Below, piece by piece: positions 1,721 to 64,000 of a DNA stretch of 64,000 nucleotides. Within the stretch, counting starts at the first letter, position 1, and every line of letters begins with the position of its first letter. The DNA is from a virus: the IMG/VR virus record IMGVR_UViG_3300046323_000419, positions 36,364 through 100,363 of that record, one strand, 5' to 3'. The position numbers were made by a program, and so were the translations under genes. A model generated the notes under the pieces. The model was not told the origin of the DNA, did no database searches, and saw nothing but the letters and a program-made list of their open reading frames with translations.

Positions 1721-2728
1721 ATGTTTACACCAAATATGACAGGTGAGATGATGATTGGAAATGCAGTAGCCACAGAAACAACTTCTGCTACTTTTATTGC
1801 TACAGCATCAGACAAAGAATTAAAAGTAATTTCTAAAGATGGTACTGCTGTTGCAGCTAAAAAACCATTTTATGTTTTACAAAAAGCAGATGGAATTCCT
1901 GGAGGATTTGAATTTTCAGATAAAGTTGACCCTCGATATGTGGAAAAAGTTACAGTTACTACTTATTCTGCTGAAGTATTGGGTTCTTATAAAGTAGATG
2001 GTTTTAACACTGCAGGTGTTGTAGCAGCTAAAAGAACTTATGAAGTTGAAGTTAGATTGGAAGATCAATTATCTCCTGAAAACTTTACAACTATTCAAGG
2101 ATATTATGTAACAGGTCAAGTAATTGGTTCTGATACACCAACAACCGTTAGAGATGGTGTTTTATTATCTTTAAATAAAAATCTATCTAATCGTGGAGCA
2201 GATGAATTTACAGCAGTTGCTGACGGTACTGGAATTTTAATTACAGAAAAATATCAAGCAAACCGTGTTGGTAGAGATACTGGTCGTAAATTACAATTTA
2301 CTGTTAAAGGTAAAGTTTTTGAAAATGTACCTACAAATGGTGAAAGTTCAAATCTTGGACTTTTAATTGCAACTCAAATAACAGTACCGAAACCTGGAAA
2401 TGGAGATGGTAAATGGGTTACTAATGCTGAGTATGTTCTTAAAGGATTTAAATATGATCCATCAAGAGAATACGGATTTCCAGCAAATTTTGGTAATTTA
2501 ACACCAACATATGCTTCTGGATCAGGAGTATATAATCTTATTCATATTAAACATTATATGCCCCGTACAGAAACTTCTGTGGAACGTCAATATAAAGTTT
2601 TAACTATTGCAGTAGATAAAGTAACTGATACATTGGCAAACAATGCTAATACTAACTCCATTCTTACTCAAATTAGAACAGCAGTTGATACATACGCAAC
2701 TGTACCAGCTAACTTAGCAGTAGTATAA
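1721..2728 (+). CDS. Probable abundant virion (capsid-associated) protein
   Basis: This 335-residue protein is low in Lys clusters and rich in Thr, Val, Gly and Ala, with a beta-rich pattern. Codon use is noticeably more GC-rich than in its neighbours, as expected for a highly expressed virion protein. It is the last gene before a strong terminator at 2751-2799, and a 34-base gap separates it from the ring protein, so it could have its own translation control. Candidates are an auxiliary capsid (decoration) protein or another major structural component. No specific fold can be claimed. A conserved central stretch (SREYGFPANFGNLTP, about residues 247-261) would be a useful search seed. Confidence 0.55.
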   Translation: MFTPNMTGEMMIGNAVATETTSATFIATASDKELKVISKDGTAVAAKKPFYVLQKADGIPGGFEFSDKVDPRYVEKVTVTTYSAEVLGSYKVDGFNTAGVVAAKRTYEVEVRLEDQLSPENFTTIQGYYVTGQVIGSDTPTTVRDGVLLSLNKNLSNRGADEFTAVADGTGILITEKYQANRVGRDTGRKLQFTVKGKVFENVPTNGESSNLGLLIATQITVPKPGNGDGKWVTNAEYVLKGFKYDPSREYGFPANFGNLTPTYASGSGVYNLIHIKHYMPRTETSVERQYKVLTIAVDKVTDTLANNANTNSILTQIRTAVDTYATVPANLAVV

Positions 2729-2750
2729 TAACACAAATAAATAATAACCT

Positions 2751-2799
2751 AAAAAGGCTGATTGTAAACATTAATTTGTACGCAGTCAGCTTTTTTTTT
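2751..2799 (+). terminator. Intrinsic terminator
   Basis: AAAAAGGCTGATTG (from 2751) pairs with CGCAGTCAGC (2781-2790), with one bulged G and one mismatch, and is followed directly by nine T residues. It ends the head/neck transcript before the adhesion module, whose first ATG is at 2810. Confidence 0.8.
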
Positions 2800-2809
2800 A
2801 CACAAAAAT

Positions 2810-3391
2810 ATGGCAGCAGCAGCGATACAGAATTTTGAAATATTAAATGACGGGCAACAACTTGCAATTGATGTAGAAACTATTGAAGGGAGTTTAATAA
2901 CTTCAATCAAATTATGGAATATTGATGCTTTTAAAGATGAATCTTTAAGTATTGATTTAGATTATAAATTAGAACAAATTAATAATAAAGAAGTTTTTAT
3001 AGTTACTGCTACAGAATTAAATATACCTTCTTTTACAGATATTTGGTTCATTGAAATTGAAAGTGATTATGAAGGTACAGAAGGTTGTACAAGTTGTCAA
3101 GACCCTGCATTAGGAATTACTTATAATTTACAACCTTATTATAAATGTATGTTAAATTATTTATTAGAATCAGAAAAATCTATAGATAGTAATTCTATAA
3201 ATGCTTATTCAAATAATTTAACAATTACTGTAAATTTATTAATTGACTCTATTGAAAAATCATTAGATGTTGGATATTATTTACAAGCAATTGAAATGTT
3301 AAATAATCTTAAAAAACTTTGTAATATTTCTAAATGTAAAAATTGTCAAACAGTTATATGTAGTTCTTGTAGTAAATTTATACAACAATAA
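2810..3391 (+). CDS. Cysteine-rich small virion-region protein
   Basis: A 193-residue protein with an N-terminal half that looks beta-rich (about 1-95), a CTSC pair near residue 98, and a C-terminal tail with CxxxxCxxCxxxxCxxC-type spacing (NISKCKNCQTVICSSC), suggesting a metal-binding knuckle. I do not recognise the family. It opens the adhesion module right after a terminator, so it needs a promoter in, or read-through of, that hairpin region. A fibre-base or assembly role is only inferred from position. Confidence 0.55.
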   Translation: MAAAAIQNFEILNDGQQLAIDVETIEGSLITSIKLWNIDAFKDESLSIDLDYKLEQINNKEVFIVTATELNIPSFTDIWFIEIESDYEGTEGCTSCQDPALGITYNLQPYYKCMLNYLLESEKSIDSNSINAYSNNLTITVNLLIDSIEKSLDVGYYLQAIEMLNNLKKLCNISKCKNCQTVICSSCSKFIQQ

Positions 3392-3393
3392 TT

Positions 3394-4104
3394 ATGCAAC
3401 AAATAAATGAAAAATCACATTATTCTACAATAATTAGCTCTTTAAATAAAGAATATAAAAAAACTAAAATTGGTAAATCAATGACTCCAAATGACATTTA
3501 TTTATTAGATGTTATATATAATTTATTACAAGGATGTTGTTTAGAATTAAGTAATATAGAAACTAAAAAGCTTTTAAAAATATATAATACTCTTTCACAT
3601 ACTTCTAAAATAATTTGCAATAATAATTATCAAGAAATTTATCAAATGAGTAAAAAGAATAAATTTATTCAAGCTGAAAAAACAGACTGCAACACAATAC
3701 CATTACAACCAACTATAGATAAAATTTATTATTGGCAAGAAGAATCATATATTACTATAATTGATGATATAATTCCATTAACATACATTGAAAATTATTT
3801 TACAGATAAATTATTTGATAAATATTCTAATTTTAAAGATATAGGTAAAACTATAAATTATGAAAATGTAGGTAGAATTTGTTTTTATGCTACAGAATCA
3901 GATGATCAAAAATTTATAGTTACAGATATATTAAATAATGACGTTACTGATATATTTGATATTGTATATTTAGTCGATTCAAATGATACAATATTTGTAT
4001 CCAAAGATTTTTATACACCTAGCGATATATTTTTTAAATTTACAAAAACAAACAACACAAACGATTCAATATTTGATATTGAATTTAATAACATATTTCA
4101 ATAA
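3394..4104 (+). CDS. Unrecognised protein of the adhesion module
   Basis: This 236-residue protein has a helical N-terminal half (including a cysteine pair, GCCLEL, about residue 49) and a beta-rich C-terminal half with many Asp, Ile and Phe residues. It has no membrane segment or known motif. It starts 2 bases after the preceding stop, and its own TAA shares an A with the ATG of the next gene, so the three genes are translationally coupled. It probably belongs to the virion fibre attachment, but this is a positional inference only. Confidence 0.5.
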   Translation: MQQINEKSHYSTIISSLNKEYKKTKIGKSMTPNDIYLLDVIYNLLQGCCLELSNIETKKLLKIYNTLSHTSKIICNNNYQEIYQMSKKNKFIQAEKTDCNTIPLQPTIDKIYYWQEESYITIIDDIIPLTYIENYFTDKLFDKYSNFKDIGKTINYENVGRICFYATESDDQKFIVTDILNNDVTDIFDIVYLVDSNDTIFVSKDFYTPSDIFFKFTKTNNTNDSIFDIEFNNIFQ

Positions 4105-47545: not shown

Positions 47546-48241
47546 TTATAAAAATAATCCATTTCGCCAATTTATTGTTGACATAATTTCAGGAAGTTCC
47601 TTTTCTAGTTCTTCACCAATTCTGGTAGCAATATCTCGTACCTCTTTTTGAGCATGTAAATCCATTCTTACATTTAAAAATCCTAACAAATCTCTTAATG
47701 TTCCAGTAATATGAATTGTAGTTTTAGTACATAAAGGTAATATATCTCTAGCACATTCTTTTGCAACACCTTGTAGTATAAGAGTATTATATAAAACTTC
47801 AGTAGCTGCTAAATATTCTTTAATCGCAGATTTTCCATTTTGAATATATGTTTCCCCATCATGTATTCCTCCCCAAATATAATCTTCCCATTCAGGATTA
47901 AATACTTCAGTACTACTTTGTCTATTAGTAGGATGTTCTTTACGTAATTCAATTTCTTCAAAACCTAATGGTTCAGCATATCTTAAACTCCATTCTTGAC
48001 CATTTAAACTTCTATGTCTAAATATTTGCGCAGATATACTACGTCTAGTTTCTATTTTAAATCCAAATGAAATATGTTGAAGTGGTGACCAGTGAGCATT
48101 GTCCATTAAATATTTAACAAGTTTACCACCATTTTCTTTTACTGTACCATGTCTAGCAATAGCTGCAATTATTTCATTATTATCTAATTTTTCATAACTA
48201 TTTAACCCAATAGTTTTTGATATTAACTCTACTTTACTCAT
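47546..48241 (-). CDS. thyX: FAD-dependent thymidylate synthase ThyX
   Basis: A 231-residue protein with the ThyX signature RHRSLNGQEWSLRY (residues 75-88), i.e. RHRxxS plus the downstream NxxxxSxRY, and the helical C-terminus of the family. ThyX methylates dUMP to dTMP with methylenetetrahydrofolate and reduced flavin, supplying dTTP for phage DNA. Length is normal. Its start overlaps the stop of a 44-residue gene upstream. It is part of the nucleotide-metabolism operon that also encodes ribonucleotide reductase. Confidence 0.92.
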   Translation of the reverse strand: MSKVELISKTIGLNSYEKLDNNEIIAAIARHGTVKENGGKLVKYLMDNAHWSPLQHISFGFKIETRRSISAQIFRHRSLNGQEWSLRYAEPLGFEEIELRKEHPTNRQSSTEVFNPEWEDYIWGGIHDGETYIQNGKSAIKEYLAATEVLYNTLILQGVAKECARDILPLCTKTTIHITGTLRDLLGFLNVRMDLHAQKEVRDIATRIGEELEKELPEIMSTINWRNGLFL

Positions 48242-58432: not shown

Positions 58433-58876
58433 TTAAATTATTTTTATATATACTCCAGGATCATCTTTATTTACACTATAAAATCCTTGTCCTATTTTCA
58501 ACGCAAAAGGTATTGCACAATCCATGTTATCGTCGATAATAATATCATGTGCAGTTAGTAAATCTAAACTAATCTGCACGATATTATGGAAATCAAATTT
58601 TCGTTTTGAATCTCTAACAAAGTGAAACCCTATTTGTAATGGTAGTTTTTTACCTTCAATTTGTTTTAAAAAATCTTCTCTTAATTCTTCAATTAGATTA
58701 GGTCTATTAACATAACCTTTCACTATCTTTTTACTTGATGAATAAGATTGTATTCCTAAACTATTTAAATATCTTTTAACAGTTATAGATGCAAAACTTC
58801 CTTTAGTCGTATTTATACGAGAATTTTTTGAACTTGGAACATTTCCAGGTATAAAGATTAATTCATTTTCTACCAT
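58433..58876 (-). CDS. RusA-like Holliday-junction resolvase family protein
   Basis: A 147-residue protein with the RusA fold pattern: N-terminal GNVPSSKNSR, then KFDFHNIVQISLDLL and IIIDDNMD (about residues 92-118). Compared with PDxDN...K...DD of RusA, the first and last aspartates are kept, but the second Asp is His and the Lys is Gln, so activity may be altered. It would resolve four-way junctions before packaging. It overlaps the next gene by 7 bases. Confidence 0.65.
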   Translation of the reverse strand: MVENELIFIPGNVPSSKNSRINTTKGSFASITVKRYLNSLGIQSYSSSKKIVKGYVNRPNLIEELREDFLKQIEGKKLPLQIGFHFVRDSKRKFDFHNIVQISLDLLTAHDIIIDDNMDCAIPFALKIGQGFYSVNKDDPGVYIKII

Positions 58877-59574
58877 ATTACACTATTAAATTGTGGATAA
58901 TTTTTCTCCATATATTCATCCAATTCTGTAAATATTGTAGAATAACTCATTAACATTGGATATGGATTTATAATTACTTTATTTTTACTTTCGTCAATAT
59001 ATTCACGTAAATCTAAATTATCTCCTGTTAAAAACAGATACACAATATTCTTTTTTCTTTTATTAATTTCTTGAATTACATTACGAATAAAATTTTTCCA
59101 AATAATTGTATAATCTTTATCTTTTTCAGTACACATCGAACAATTTAAAAACAACATATCATTATCACAATAATCATCAAGACTATTATCAAAATTAGTT
59201 ATACTATGCTGATTACCATATATTGTTTCATAAATACAATCTCTAAACTGTCTTAATTCTAAAGGTAAATTTTCAATTAAAATAGATTTATCTATTATTC
59301 CTCTACCTATACCTGAAGATCTAACATCTTTAGCGGGTCTATTATCAATTATTACAATTTTTACATCCTTAAAAGAGCATTTTTTAAAAGAATTAAATAA
59401 TCTACTTTTTATAGGATAAACTTTCTTATCGGATAAATAAATTTGTTCTATAAAATCATTCAGATGATTTGAATATTCAAGAGATGTTAAATTGCATAAA
59501 ATAGTTGACCACTCAAAACCTATTTCATTTGTCCAATTATAAGATGTTTTATTTTTAGAAGAGGTTATCATCAA
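58870..59574 (-). CDS. Uracil-DNA glycosylase-like protein with altered motifs
   Basis: A 234-residue protein with the UDG layout: VKIVIIDNRPAKD (residues 71-83) where UNG has its GQDPYH loop, MLFLNCSMC (140-148) like the LLLN strand, IIWKNF (157-162), and NPYPMLMS (203-210) in place of HPSPLS. The catalytic Asp and His are not in their normal context, so it may bind DNA or act in another way. UDG-type genes are a known crAss-like conserved feature. Overlaps the resolvase start. Confidence 0.6.
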   Translation of the reverse strand: MMITSSKNKTSYNWTNEIGFEWSTILCNLTSLEYSNHLNDFIEQIYLSDKKVYPIKSRLFNSFKKCSFKDVKIVIIDNRPAKDVRSSGIGRGIIDKSILIENLPLELRQFRDCIYETIYGNQHSITNFDNSLDDYCDNDMLFLNCSMCTEKDKDYTIIWKNFIRNVIQEINKRKKNIVYLFLTGDNLDLREYIDESKNKVIINPYPMLMSYSTIFTELDEYMEKNYPQFNSVIW

Positions 59575-61285
59575 CTTGTATTTTAAAGTTATCTATTTGA
59601 TTTATTATTTTAGAAGTATCTATATCTTTGTAATAAACCTGATTATCAAAACTTACAGTATTAATACCAACTTTAGTACTTTGCCATAGATTTATCAATT
59701 CATTAGTTTCTTTAGAAGTATAAATAAATTTTGGCAAAGAGCATTCAATGAAACTATCTAAATCAATATTTTTTTTAACCTCTTGGTAATTTAACCAATT
59801 AATATTATTTGGTGCAGGTATTTCAGATTCAGTACCTAAAATATTACCTTTTAAAATCTGTTTTTCACAATAATTTTTTCTTTTATCGATATAATTATAC
59901 ATTAAATCTCTAAATTGACTTTTGTATGGAATATTGTGAATATCAATTTGATTAGATAAAACAGAAAATAAATCAAATTGATTTAAAAAGCTTTTATTTT
60001 TTAAAATAGAATCTTGATGTTTTATTGTAAAATTAACTATTAAACTATTCATAAATATAAATGGAAATATTTTATTTATATCATATGTAGGAGTATGAAT
60101 TCTAAATTCTATAGTCTGTTTATTACCAAATATCAAAGGGATTATATTATATAGAAAATAACGATATTTTATATTCCATTTTTGATTACCATTTGGGTCT
60201 GCTGGATGACTTAAAACATTACTAAGGTCATTATTAACTGATTTAAAGTCTTGACCCATTGATAAGTATTTATATAATATTCCAAAATTATCGTCTATAT
60301 TATTAGAATTAATAATGGGATCTAATTGAGATAAAATTTCAAATGTTGGTAATGGTGCAGAATAATTTTTATTTTTAATATGATAATTATACTTTTTATA
60401 TAAAGGAAACATTTGAAACATTTCATCTTGTATTTTCATACCTACTTTAAAAAACGCTAATATAAATTCCTTTGTTCTTGGAATATTACCTAAATGTAAA
60501 TGTAATGAACAAGTTTCGTCATTATATTCAGTTCTTTCACTTAATATTTTAAGAATATCAGAAGTACATTGTAACCCTTTTTCACCTTGCATAGGAACAG
60601 TAACATATTCAATACCTGATATAGAACCGTCTCTTAAGGGAATTAATCCATATTTATCAAGAATTCTATTTGGGATAAAACCTTTAGTTGTTTCAAATTC
60701 TAAACCAAATGATAAATTTTTTAATAAAGGTGCATAATTTTTAATAGTTTTAGAAATTTCAGGATTATAATTTTCATTATAATTTTTTAAATTATTTCCA
60801 ATAATTCCCTTAGAGTCATAAGGTAAACTATATTTGTAATCTTTACTTGGAAATATTATTGCATTAAGTTTACACGATGAAAGTTTTGATATATGATAAA
60901 AATTTCCAGTAGATAACTGTTCTCGGTATTCTTTATTATTTTTAAAAATTTCTGGGTTGAATAAATAATATTTATTATGATTTTTATCTGTAATTATTGA
61001 ATATTTTAAATTACTATTAAAATAACCTAAAATTAAATTATCATCTATTATATCAACAACTCCTTTAATCAATGTATTATCTAAAATAACATATTGTTTT
61101 ACACTATAGTTATAAATAACTAAACCTGTTTCTTCTCGAAAACATTTCCCATTAATTAAATAACAATCTCCTGAATTTTGAATATTTATATCTCCTAGTT
61201 TATAATAAAATTTATTAAATTTTCTACATTGAGAAATGGGTAACTCTTCTCCTTTTATTGTAATTACTTTTTTTTCAGCACTCAT
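59555..61285 (-). CDS. Amidoligase (GS-like COOH-NH2 ligase, Amidoligase_2 type)
   Basis: A 576-residue protein; start taken at 61285 just after the upstream stop, because a longer frame from 61312 overlaps it by 26 bases. The core shows LSFGLEFETTKG (numbering from 61312: about 200-211), DGSISGIEYVTVP, HLHLG (271-275) and later IEFRIHTP, the acidic and histidine metal/ATP sites of the amidoligase superfamily. Such enzymes form amide bonds between carboxyl and amine groups. It sits directly after a class II glutamine amidotransferase gene and near a second ligase. The acceptor substrate is unknown. Confidence 0.75.
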   Translation of the reverse strand: MSAEKKVITIKGEELPISQCRKFNKFYYKLGDINIQNSGDCYLINGKCFREETGLVIYNYSVKQYVILDNTLIKGVVDIIDDNLILGYFNSNLKYSIITDKNHNKYYLFNPEIFKNNKEYREQLSTGNFYHISKLSSCKLNAIIFPSKDYKYSLPYDSKGIIGNNLKNYNENYNPEISKTIKNYAPLLKNLSFGLEFETTKGFIPNRILDKYGLIPLRDGSISGIEYVTVPMQGEKGLQCTSDILKILSERTEYNDETCSLHLHLGNIPRTKEFILAFFKVGMKIQDEMFQMFPLYKKYNYHIKNKNYSAPLPTFEILSQLDPIINSNNIDDNFGILYKYLSMGQDFKSVNNDLSNVLSHPADPNGNQKWNIKYRYFLYNIIPLIFGNKQTIEFRIHTPTYDINKIFPFIFMNSLIVNFTIKHQDSILKNKSFLNQFDLFSVLSNQIDIHNIPYKSQFRDLMYNYIDKRKNYCEKQILKGNILGTESEIPAPNNINWLNYQEVKKNIDLDSFIECSLPKFIYTSKETNELINLWQSTKVGINTVSFDNQVYYKDIDTSKIINQIDNFKIQVDDNLF

Positions 61286-61286
61286 T

Positions 61287-63203
61287 TTATTTTTTATTAG
61301 GTTTTTCAACAAAGTCTTTTAATGTATGACTTATTAAATTTAATGTATTTAATGCGGTTTTAACAGTTTCATTTTCTTTCCAATCAGAAAGTTCAATAAT
61401 AGTTTCAGATACTTCTTCAGAATGTCTTTCAAAAGATTCTAAAATTAACTCTTTAATAAATTTTTCGTCTTCTAATTCTTTAATAGCAACTTCTATCTTA
61501 ACATTTTTTTCAAAATCTTCAATAGATTTGATAGAATTATTAAATATTTCTTTATCAAATTTATTTACATCTGTAGTAGCTGGTAATATTATTACTGGAG
61601 ATTCTTTTTCAACTACTAAATCTTCTCTTTTAACCCATTTTGTTAATATACCATTATTAAAATAATATATTTTTTCAAAACCTAACTCTGTTATATTTCC
61701 AGTAAATGGTTTTCCATCAAACATTGCAATAGATACTGTTTTTGCAGGATCCATATCGATTACAGGATGTTTGGAAATATAAGATAATATTTGATGATCA
61801 ATATGTTTAATTGGCGGTTTTAATCCTTTTTGTATAATAACTGCTTTATTATAATCTTCAGAAGTTTTTAATAAAACACCATTTATAAAATAATGAAATT
61901 GTATATTATCAACCTCTTTTTTAAATGGGATAAATCCTTCTGTGTTTAATGCATTAAAATTAAAACAACCCTCTTTATAATTAAAAGCTAAACCTTTTAT
62001 ATTTTTAACATAAAGACTTGATGTAACAGAATCTATACCTGCGAATTTAAAACCCCAATTTTTTATATAAATATAAATACCGTTTATAAGAGACCCCTTT
62101 TCCCAATATCTTAAACTTTTAGAATAAACTTTACCATTATAATCTACAATAGTATGAATTGTTTTATCTTCATGTAAATTAGTCATTGAATATTTTTTAG
62201 TTTCTAAATTAGTATTAGTTGCTACTTCTTTTGGTGTTATACAATTTTCCCAATCACAATACTCATCCATATAACCACGTCGATTATACTTGGTATTATA
62301 TATAATTTCTTCACTTTGTCCAGCTTGCAGCCGACTAACTTTATGTTTTTCAGCATTTGCAAAATCACCATCTGTAATAATATAAACAGTATTATAATCT
62401 ATTTGTAAGTCATCTTTTTTAGAAGCACCTAAAACAGTTAAACTATTTTGTATAGATGAAAAAAACATACTGTTTTCATTTTTACAATAAACATTCATAG
62501 GTCTTTCTTCCATTTCAGTAACTATCATAGAACCTTTTGTTTGTTTGGAAGCACCTGACCATAAATATAATTTATTTGGTTCATCAATCCAAGTCCAAGC
62601 TAAAGCAGCTGCCCCAATATATTCACTTAAAACGTGAAACTTTTTTGTTTTATATAATATTTCACCTAATATTTCACTATCAATTTTATCACGAGTTGTT
62701 TCATAAGAGTGTCCACCATGTGTTAATTTTGTAATTTTTTCAGACAATTCAATATCATATTTTTTAGCTAATTCTTTATGATTTTTTAAAGTACCATTAT
62801 GACAAAAAATCATTTCATAACCTTCTTTATTTTTACTTGTACCAAATCCAAATGGATGAGCATTATCTTCTGTAATTGCAAAACCATAACTAGGTTGCCT
62901 AGTATGACCAATCATAATAGGGATTTTAGTAGGTTTAATTTCTCTATCTACAATAAAATCTGTATATAATTTGTCAAAACCAAGACCATATTGCACATCC
63001 CCATCCCACGATAACCCACAAGACATTTTACCTCTTTCTATATTGTAAATACCTAAGATATGTACACCATTAATATCTAAATTTTCAGGTTTATTTGTAG
63101 CCATTCCAAAAATTCCACAACTTAAAATATTTGATTTATAACCAAATAAAAAGTTACTTATATATTGTAATAATGCTAATATTAGAACTATTTTTACTAT
63201 CAT
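61287..63203 (-). CDS. Class II glutamine amidotransferase with N-terminal hydrophobic leader
   Basis: A 638-residue protein. Residues about 1-28 are a hydrophobic leader ending KSNILS; the Ntn-hydrolase motif CGIFGMA begins at C29. Further hallmarks are GHTRQPSYG and NAHPF, then CHNGTLKN. The catalytic Cys of this family must be the free N-terminal residue, so cleavage after Ser28 would be needed. Residues about 330-638 are a beta-rich region of unknown function. It releases ammonia from glutamine, probably feeding the adjacent ligases. The TAA is followed by the next ATG after 1 base. Confidence 0.75.
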   Translation of the reverse strand: MIVKIVLILALLQYISNFLFGYKSNILSCGIFGMATNKPENLDINGVHILGIYNIERGKMSCGLSWDGDVQYGLGFDKLYTDFIVDREIKPTKIPIMIGHTRQPSYGFAITEDNAHPFGFGTSKNKEGYEMIFCHNGTLKNHKELAKKYDIELSEKITKLTHGGHSYETTRDKIDSEILGEILYKTKKFHVLSEYIGAAALAWTWIDEPNKLYLWSGASKQTKGSMIVTEMEERPMNVYCKNENSMFFSSIQNSLTVLGASKKDDLQIDYNTVYIITDGDFANAEKHKVSRLQAGQSEEIIYNTKYNRRGYMDEYCDWENCITPKEVATNTNLETKKYSMTNLHEDKTIHTIVDYNGKVYSKSLRYWEKGSLINGIYIYIKNWGFKFAGIDSVTSSLYVKNIKGLAFNYKEGCFNFNALNTEGFIPFKKEVDNIQFHYFINGVLLKTSEDYNKAVIIQKGLKPPIKHIDHQILSYISKHPVIDMDPAKTVSIAMFDGKPFTGNITELGFEKIYYFNNGILTKWVKREDLVVEKESPVIILPATTDVNKFDKEIFNNSIKSIEDFEKNVKIEVAIKELEDEKFIKELILESFERHSEEVSETIIELSDWKENETVKTALNTLNLISHTLKDFVEKPNKK

Positions 63204-63205
63204 TT

Positions 63206-64000
63206 TTATTTATTTAAAATTTCTATTTTAATATTATTAATTATTTCAATTTTATTTAACAATTCTTGAGCTAAATCTTTATTGTTAGTGTTAATTGCTT
63301 CTACAATATAAACACCTAATTCTTTAACTTCTTCAATTTTACTAGAATTAACTAAATCAATAGCTTTCATTGTAGTATTCCAAGCCCATTGTAAAGAGTT
63401 ATCAGTTTTAATCCAAAAATTAGATAAACTGCGATATTCAATTCCATATTCCCTAAATCTAAAACAACCTGCTTTACCATATAATTTTTTACGTTCTGTA
63501 TCAAAATCTAATAATACAGATTCTAAACCAACTGTAGCATCCATTGCTTTAACCATATCAAGTTGTTGTTCTTGAGTAGGGTTATCCCAACCTATTGAAA
63601 TATGTCCTCCAGCACTTCTTAGACTAGTTAAACTTAAATCTGCGGGTTCATTAATACATTCATTCCATACATCGAAATCTGGTTCACAACCTGCAAGACG
63701 CGCAATATCGTTGTCTAACTCAGATTCATCTAATATTGCAGAAGGTTGAATTGCTAATGTGTAACCCATTCCAGATACTAATACTTCTAAATAATCTTTA
63801 ACAAAATTATTATGATATACCCAATCAGTAACTGTATTACAAGGTGGAATATTATATTCAATTGCAACATTATCTTCTTGAATAAAATGACCATCTTTAG
63901 AAATGGCTTGAGGCTCTGATTTAGAGCCTCCTATTTTACCAATTGCTGAAATAATTTTATTATCTTTTTGTAGAAATAATTCTGGATCTGTACCTAAAGT
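63206..64000 (-). CDS. COOH-NH2 ligase type 2 (phiEco32-like), 5' end outside window
   Basis: The frame is open to the right edge (first visible codon at 64000), so at least 264 residues are present and the true start is outside. Visible motifs are GTDPELFL near the edge, DNVAIEYNIPP, GGHISIGWDNP, GLESVLLDFD and FREYGIEYRSLSNFW, which match the COOH-NH2 ligase (glutamine-synthetase-like) family of phages such as phiEco32. An ATG at 63769 would cut off the conserved N-terminus. It is 2 bases upstream of the amidotransferase gene, and all three probably act together. Confidence 0.78.
   Translation of the reverse strand, partial: TLGTDPELFLQKDNKIISAIGKIGGSKSEPQAISKDGHFIQEDNVAIEYNIPPCNTVTDWVYHNNFVKDYLEVLVSGMGYTLAIQPSAILDESELDNDIARLAGCEPDFDVWNECINEPADLSLTSLRSAGGHISIGWDNPTQEQQLDMVKAMDATVGLESVLLDFDTERKKLYGKAGCFRFREYGIEYRSLSNFWIKTDNSLQWAWNTTMKAIDLVNSSKIEEVKELGVYIVEAINTNNKDLAQELLNKIEIINNIKIEILNK

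Follow-up and report, generated by a model that had tools for sequence, protein, structure and literature searches.

An amide-bond gene cassette of a crAss-like phage, with a membrane-anchor-like leader on its amidotransferase and a ThiF-JAB module at the same locus in related phages

Introduction

At the right end of a 64,000-nucleotide stretch of viral DNA (hereafter the window), three consecutive genes encode a COOH-NH2 ligase, a class II (Ntn) glutamine amidotransferase (GAT-II) and an amidoligase. What do these enzymes build, and on which acceptor? The ligase is encoded in several hundred phage records, some of them from lytic Pseudomonas and E. coli phages with therapeutic potential. A prediction of peptidoglycan modification is reportedly to be credited to Iyer et al. 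2009. The amidoligase cassettes of phiEco32 and LUZ24 have been named a 'peptidoglycan modification module' (PMC11945000), and the published proposals for the cassette are peptidoglycan or cell-wall modification, superinfection exclusion and the creation of endolysin targets (PMC11945000; PMC10580990).

Cassette genes at the right end of the window

An earlier reading of the window from its letters (hereafter the sequence-only reading) had named the three enzymes, and the Pfam and PHROGs searches agreed with it. The COOH-NH2 ligase (GS/GCS2-like, PF14395; window 63206..64000, minus strand) was matched with E values of 1.8e-6 in Pfam and 3.1e-69 for phrog_3815 ('COOH.NH2 ligase'). The window holds 264 of its codons; its 5' end, with the ATG near record position 148, is on the far side of the circular junction described below. 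GAT-II (61287..63203, minus strand, 638 residues) was matched by GATase_6 (PF13522, E 1.3e-6, over the cut-off) and phrog_14519 (E 1e-7), and the amidoligase (59555..61312, minus strand) by Amidoligase_2 (PF12224, 24.2 bits against a cut-off of 22) and phrog_2443 (E 3e-34). The three genes are nearly contiguous, and each is above its Pfam cut-off. The amidoligase more likely starts at the ATG at 61285 (MSAEKK) than at the TTG at 61312, judging from its orthologues in loci L014 and L018, which start there. The downstream flank, outside the cassette, is a uracil-DNA glycosylase (UDG) homologue (58870..59574, minus strand; phrog_12143), the product of which matched the UDG-annotated neighbours in phages phi14:2 and cr108_1 (genes in L005 and L006) with phmmer E values of 8e-10 and 4e-13.

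Loss of the catalytic sites in relatives would have spoken against these assignments. In 12 phages of very different hosts, however, the predicted catalytic residues were invariant. The ligase keeps D11, E13, D49, N50, E54, H139, R187, E194 and R196 (L015 numbering), and the amidoligase keeps ExE (205/207), DGS (228-230), E235, HxH (271/273), N389 and E402/R404. Most of these active-site residues were also retained in a wider set of 45 rows.

The AF2 model of the amidoligase, built from 45 sequences, was confident (pLDDT 85.7). Its leading fold matches in the PDB were all members of the GS/GCS2 superfamily, namely YbdK (1tt4/1r8g), gamma-glutamylcysteine synthetase (1va6), PafA (4bjr) and glutamine synthetase, with weak Foldseek E values of 2.7e-3 to 5e-3 that support an assignment at the superfamily level only. 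The best viral fold matches were the amidoligases of phi14:2 and cr108_1. The GAT-II model, built from 7 close sequences, was poor (pLDDT 35), and the C-terminal region of about 400 residues was therefore left without assignment. Searches of PDB sequences with the ligase, amidoligase and GAT-II profiles found no solved structure.

The cassette continues across the circular junction

The window makes up the final 64 kb of a 100,363-bp virus record and stops where the record stops. A 130-bp repeat is present at both record ends (129/130 identical), which shows that the genome is a circle and that the cut is artificial. The cassette resumes at the other end of the record, upstream of the ligase and again on the minus strand. 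There we found a C26 hydrolase that is extended at its N-terminus (record 158-1147), a RimK-like ATP-grasp protein (record 1144-1992; RimK TIGR00768, E 7e-9), a second C26 hydrolase (record 1985-2692), a gamma-glutamyl cyclotransferase (GGCT1, record 2699-3112) and a divergent second GGCT-like gene (record 3112-3627, locus L002), in which the YGSLR and LEGY motifs have been lost. Two small genes without assignment follow, and then the primase. The products of orf150 and orf178 had no convincing family match. The second GGCT-like protein is still kept in close relatives despite its motif loss; it is possibly a non-catalytic partner.

In all, the cassette comprises about eight genes for the formation and cleavage of amide bonds of the gamma-glutamyl type. 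The sequence-only reading had taken the trio as the unit; its three genes are real and coupled, but the unit is larger and spans the junction. That reading had also raised an ATP-grasp gene and an acceptor-peptide gene as possible members of the operon. The former is present past the window end. No candidate for an acceptor peptide, or for the precursor peptide that a RiPP pathway with an ATP-grasp ligase would have, was recognised among the cassette's genes.

The enzyme mix could also belong to a small-molecule pathway, in which a gamma-glutamyl amide metabolite would shield the phage or poison a host process and the GGCT and C26 enzymes would deprotect it at the end. PuuA and PuuD combine a GS-like ligase with a C26 hydrolase, and BtrJ and BtrG of the butirosin pathway combine an ATP-grasp enzyme with a GGCT. 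Every enzyme class of such a protecting-group pathway is present in the cassette, and no acceptor peptide gene would be needed. The nearest NCBIfam models of the C26 proteins are PuuD and gamma-glutamyl-CDP-amidate hydrolase, but both matches are far below the curated cut-offs. Moreover, the cassette has no exporter, carrier or tailoring enzyme, and the anti-phage defence profiles of PADLOC, which cover defence and not counter-defence, gave no match in this genome. We regard a small-molecule product as doubtful.

As the sequence-only reading had proposed, the genome is crAss-like. Major capsid, portal, terminase and primase markers are present; the major capsid protein is 61% identical to that of Cellulophaga phage phi14:2 and the terminase 42% to Steigviridae. 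By these sequence similarities the phage is placed as Steigviridae-like and near phi14:2. The same reading had put the trio in an early operon with RNR and ThyX. RNR and ThyX (window 47546-48241) do lie on the cassette's strand.

The position of the cassette between primase and UDG, near RNR, ThyX and DNA polymerase, could also point to hypermodification of DNA or nucleotides, with an amide-linked group built on a base or a dNTP. Replication genes adjoin the cassette in LUZ24 and phiEco32 too. However, no base-activating enzyme was found in the cassette, the GAT-II leader described below points to the membrane, and the adjacent UDG homologue also occurs in crAss phages without the cassette. 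We consider this explanation very unlikely.

Spread and cohesion of the cassette

Relatives of the ligase were found in 305 of 50,697 phage records, including Kuravirus phiEco32, Salmonella phage 7-11 and Bruynoghevirus LUZ24, the ligases of which have much the same gene set around them. The relation to phiEco32-type sets proposed earlier is thereby borne out. In phiEco32 and LUZ24, the same ligase family, amidoligase, GAT-II, ATP-grasp and GGCT form one run, in the order COOH-gp85-amidoligase-GAT-II-ATP-grasp-GGCT. The hallmarks of these cassettes are also found here: PF14395, PF12224 with a GS-like site, GAT-II, and ATP-grasp and GGCT in the run. The phiEco32 and LUZ24 cassettes differ in that GAT-II has no leader, an extra gp85 of about 200 residues is present, and no C26 hydrolase was recognised in the regions read.

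Within the Crassvirales records, matches to the amidoligase and the ATP-grasp were confined, at the sensitivity used, to phi14:2 and cr108_1, and both have the same cassette, as the sequence-only reading had led one to look for. In phi14:2 (Steigviridae, g037-g041) the slot and order are the same: primase, GGCT, ATP-grasp, COOH-NH2 ligase, GAT-II, amidoligase and UDG. The amidoligases are 39% and the ATP-grasp proteins 49% identical to ours. Whereas phi14:2 has one GGCT and no recognised C26 protein, there are two GGCT-like and two C26 genes in the phage studied here.

We fetched 80 viral loci, 61 of which had enough flank for co-occurrence counts. The ligase was accompanied by GAT-II and amidoligase in 61/61, by ATP-grasp in 59/61, by a C26 protein in 58/61 and by GGCT in 39/61. 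The core families found lay on one strand in 80/80 loci, mostly in the order ATP-grasp-COOH-GATII-AMID (34 loci) or COOH-AMID-GATII-ATP-grasp (23 loci). The protein distances of the components correlate with one another (Mantel rho 0.46-0.86, 0/499 permutations as high), and part of this correlation comes from the shared descent of the phages. When a collection of 84,980 bacterial and archaeal genomes was scanned by pattern, only 5 loci turned up, all on MAG contigs. The cassette is virus-restricted and of an already known kind, and the trio itself is not novel.

Two side observations were made at these loci. Six of them (L108, L118, L122, L136, L137 and L139) carry, after the amidoligase, a second Ntn-like protein that matches the GAT-II profile and starts with MC(I/L)I. 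In close relatives, the COOH-NH2 ligase gene and one of the C26 genes are interrupted by inserts of about 1.1 kb (L013:8464-9573, L016:5945-7024); by eye, the insert ORF is LAGLIDADG-type homing endonuclease-like in L013 and HNH-like in L016. Rfam found only tRNAs, and no intron match, in the loci with split genes.

The hydrophobic leader of the amidotransferase

The sequence-only reading had overlooked two features, a hydrophobic leader on GAT-II and an exchange of modules at the locus. Both look new, and together they give two testable handles on the function of the cassette.

Class II amidotransferases act through an N-terminal Cys. In the window GAT-II, the predicted Ntn nucleophile (CGIFG; codon 63117..63119, minus strand), which aligns with the Met-Cys starts of homologues, is residue 29. 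It is preceded by a 28-residue hydrophobic leader, MIVKIVLILALLQYISNFLFGYKSNILS (63120..63203, minus strand). Since Ntn chemistry needs an exposed N-terminal Cys, the leader would have to come off by processing. A mis-called start was rejected: the codon before Cys29 is AGT, which is not a start codon. The codons at this place in the leader-bearing genes encode S, N, G, A, Y or V, and none of those that were read is a start codon.

A leader with a hydrophobic stretch directly before the Cys was found in 27 of the 86 GAT-IIs from such cassettes, those of the window and phi14:2 among them. It is 27-28 residues long (31 in phi14:2), with Leu at position -2 in 26/27 and Lys or Arg at -6 in 23/27. 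Most leader-less GAT-IIs start with Met-Cys. Residues 1-4 carry a net charge of +0.30, and the last nine residues of the leader one of +1.78; the charge is higher after than before the hydrophobic stretch in 21 leaders, and the reverse was never seen. This distribution predicts an N-out/C-in anchor that would hold GAT-II at the cytoplasmic side of the inner membrane. A lipoprotein or exported signal peptide was judged unlikely in view of the lysines at -6/-8 and the positive charge after the hydrophobic stretch.

The identity of the leader exceeds that of the body in 94% of pairs. Its codon conservation over all pairs (0.63) does not exceed what the body predicts (0.62), although a few pairs are unusually similar, and a mobile or RNA element was rejected. 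When viral contigs were searched with the leader DNA, the extended matches lay only in front of GAT-II genes. A separate observation concerns loci L086 and L017, in which the leader codons nearly equal those of the window (63117-63203; 22 of 23 identical) although only about 60% of the amino acids are shared in the bodies, hinting that the leader segment may have recombined. On a quick GAT-II tree, in which some rows are near-copies, 15 changes are required to explain the leader trait, and well-supported branches force at least 11 of them. The leader is absent in 59/86 GAT-IIs, including very close relatives of the window protein (L085, L087), and the anchor is therefore not essential. No separately encoded leader was found in the leader-less genomes.

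A possible role at the cell envelope

We tentatively explain the cassette, with a probability of roughly 0.42, as a gamma-glutamyl or amide modification of an envelope peptide precursor, the crAss version of the phiEco32/LUZ24 type. The two glutamine-synthetase-fold ligases and the RimK-like ATP-grasp would form ATP-dependent amide bonds on carboxylates. Each carboxylate would be activated as an acyl phosphate and joined to an amine or to ammonia, which GAT-II would derive from glutamine. The two C26 hydrolases and GGCT1 would cut gamma-glutamyl groups off again, in a build-then-trim (protecting-group) logic. The substrate would most likely be an envelope peptide, such as a precursor of peptidoglycan on the inner side of the inner membrane, and the envelope change may block superinfection or tune lysis. 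The envelope target within this explanation is of low certainty.

The enzyme families, the GS/GCS2 fold, the conserved sites, the cohesion of the unit, the GAT-II leader and the earlier cell-wall proposals argue for this explanation; the leader in particular favours a peptide acceptor at the membrane. On the other hand, 59 of the 86 GAT-IIs do without the leader, and the other cassette families show no clear membrane leader beyond stray cases. Cleavage of the leader could also release GAT-II into the cytosol. In addition, the cassette has DNA-replication genes around it, no acceptor was identified, and no C26 protein could be recognised in the regions read of the phiEco32-type sets.

A ThiF-JAB module in the same slot

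In crAss001 and cr126_1, the interval from primase to UDG holds a JAB protease, a ThiF/E1 protein and unassigned genes, and cr111_1 has the same JAB and ThiF genes downstream of its primase. Like the cassette, this module pairs a carboxylate-activating with a peptidase-type enzyme; its protein families, however, are unrelated to those of the cassette. The ThiF of cr126_1, which is related to PRTRC-system ThiF (E 8e-10), had matches in 74 records and none in phi14:2 or cr108_1, and neither the ThiF nor the JAB Pfam family was found in the present genome. None of the records checked had both modules. One locus is thus occupied by either of two unrelated modules that activate carboxylates. That they share a purpose is conjecture, and the comparison with crAss001 bears on whether they do the same job.

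This exchange favours protein conjugation: the ligases would add Glu or short gamma-glutamyl or amidated chains to phage or host proteins, and the GGCT and C26 enzymes would remove them, as an analogue of ThiF-JAB. The RimK-like ATP-grasp is in keeping with such a role, as is PafA, a protein ligase, among the fold matches of the amidoligase, although it is one of several equally weak matches. However, the same slot need not mean the same function, since accessory slots of phages are often hot spots; no target protein is known; and in Flavobacterium phage Fpv1 a ThiF gene lies nearby in a different gene order. We consider protein modification rather unlikely, but place it ahead of the small-molecule pathway. 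A stronger combined claim would make GAT-II an inner-membrane-anchored proenzyme that is cut about eight residues beyond its membrane segment. The cut would expose the Cys and let the cassette work at the membrane, and the cassette would in addition be functionally interchangeable with ThiF-JAB. We hold this combination to be unlikely, behind both of these alternatives and ahead of DNA modification. We tentatively rank the envelope explanation first and keep the others.

Finally, the first gene of the ThiF-JAB slot (L170:5504-6430, L171:5463-6098 and L173:7628-8305, the last being crAss001 gp79) has a conserved N-terminal domain of about 80 residues. By its sequence pattern, this domain, which had no Pfam match, resembles prokaryotic ubiquitin-like domains. 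The cr126_1 protein has a ribosomal L7/L12 C-terminal domain (PF00542, E 5e-12) after it.
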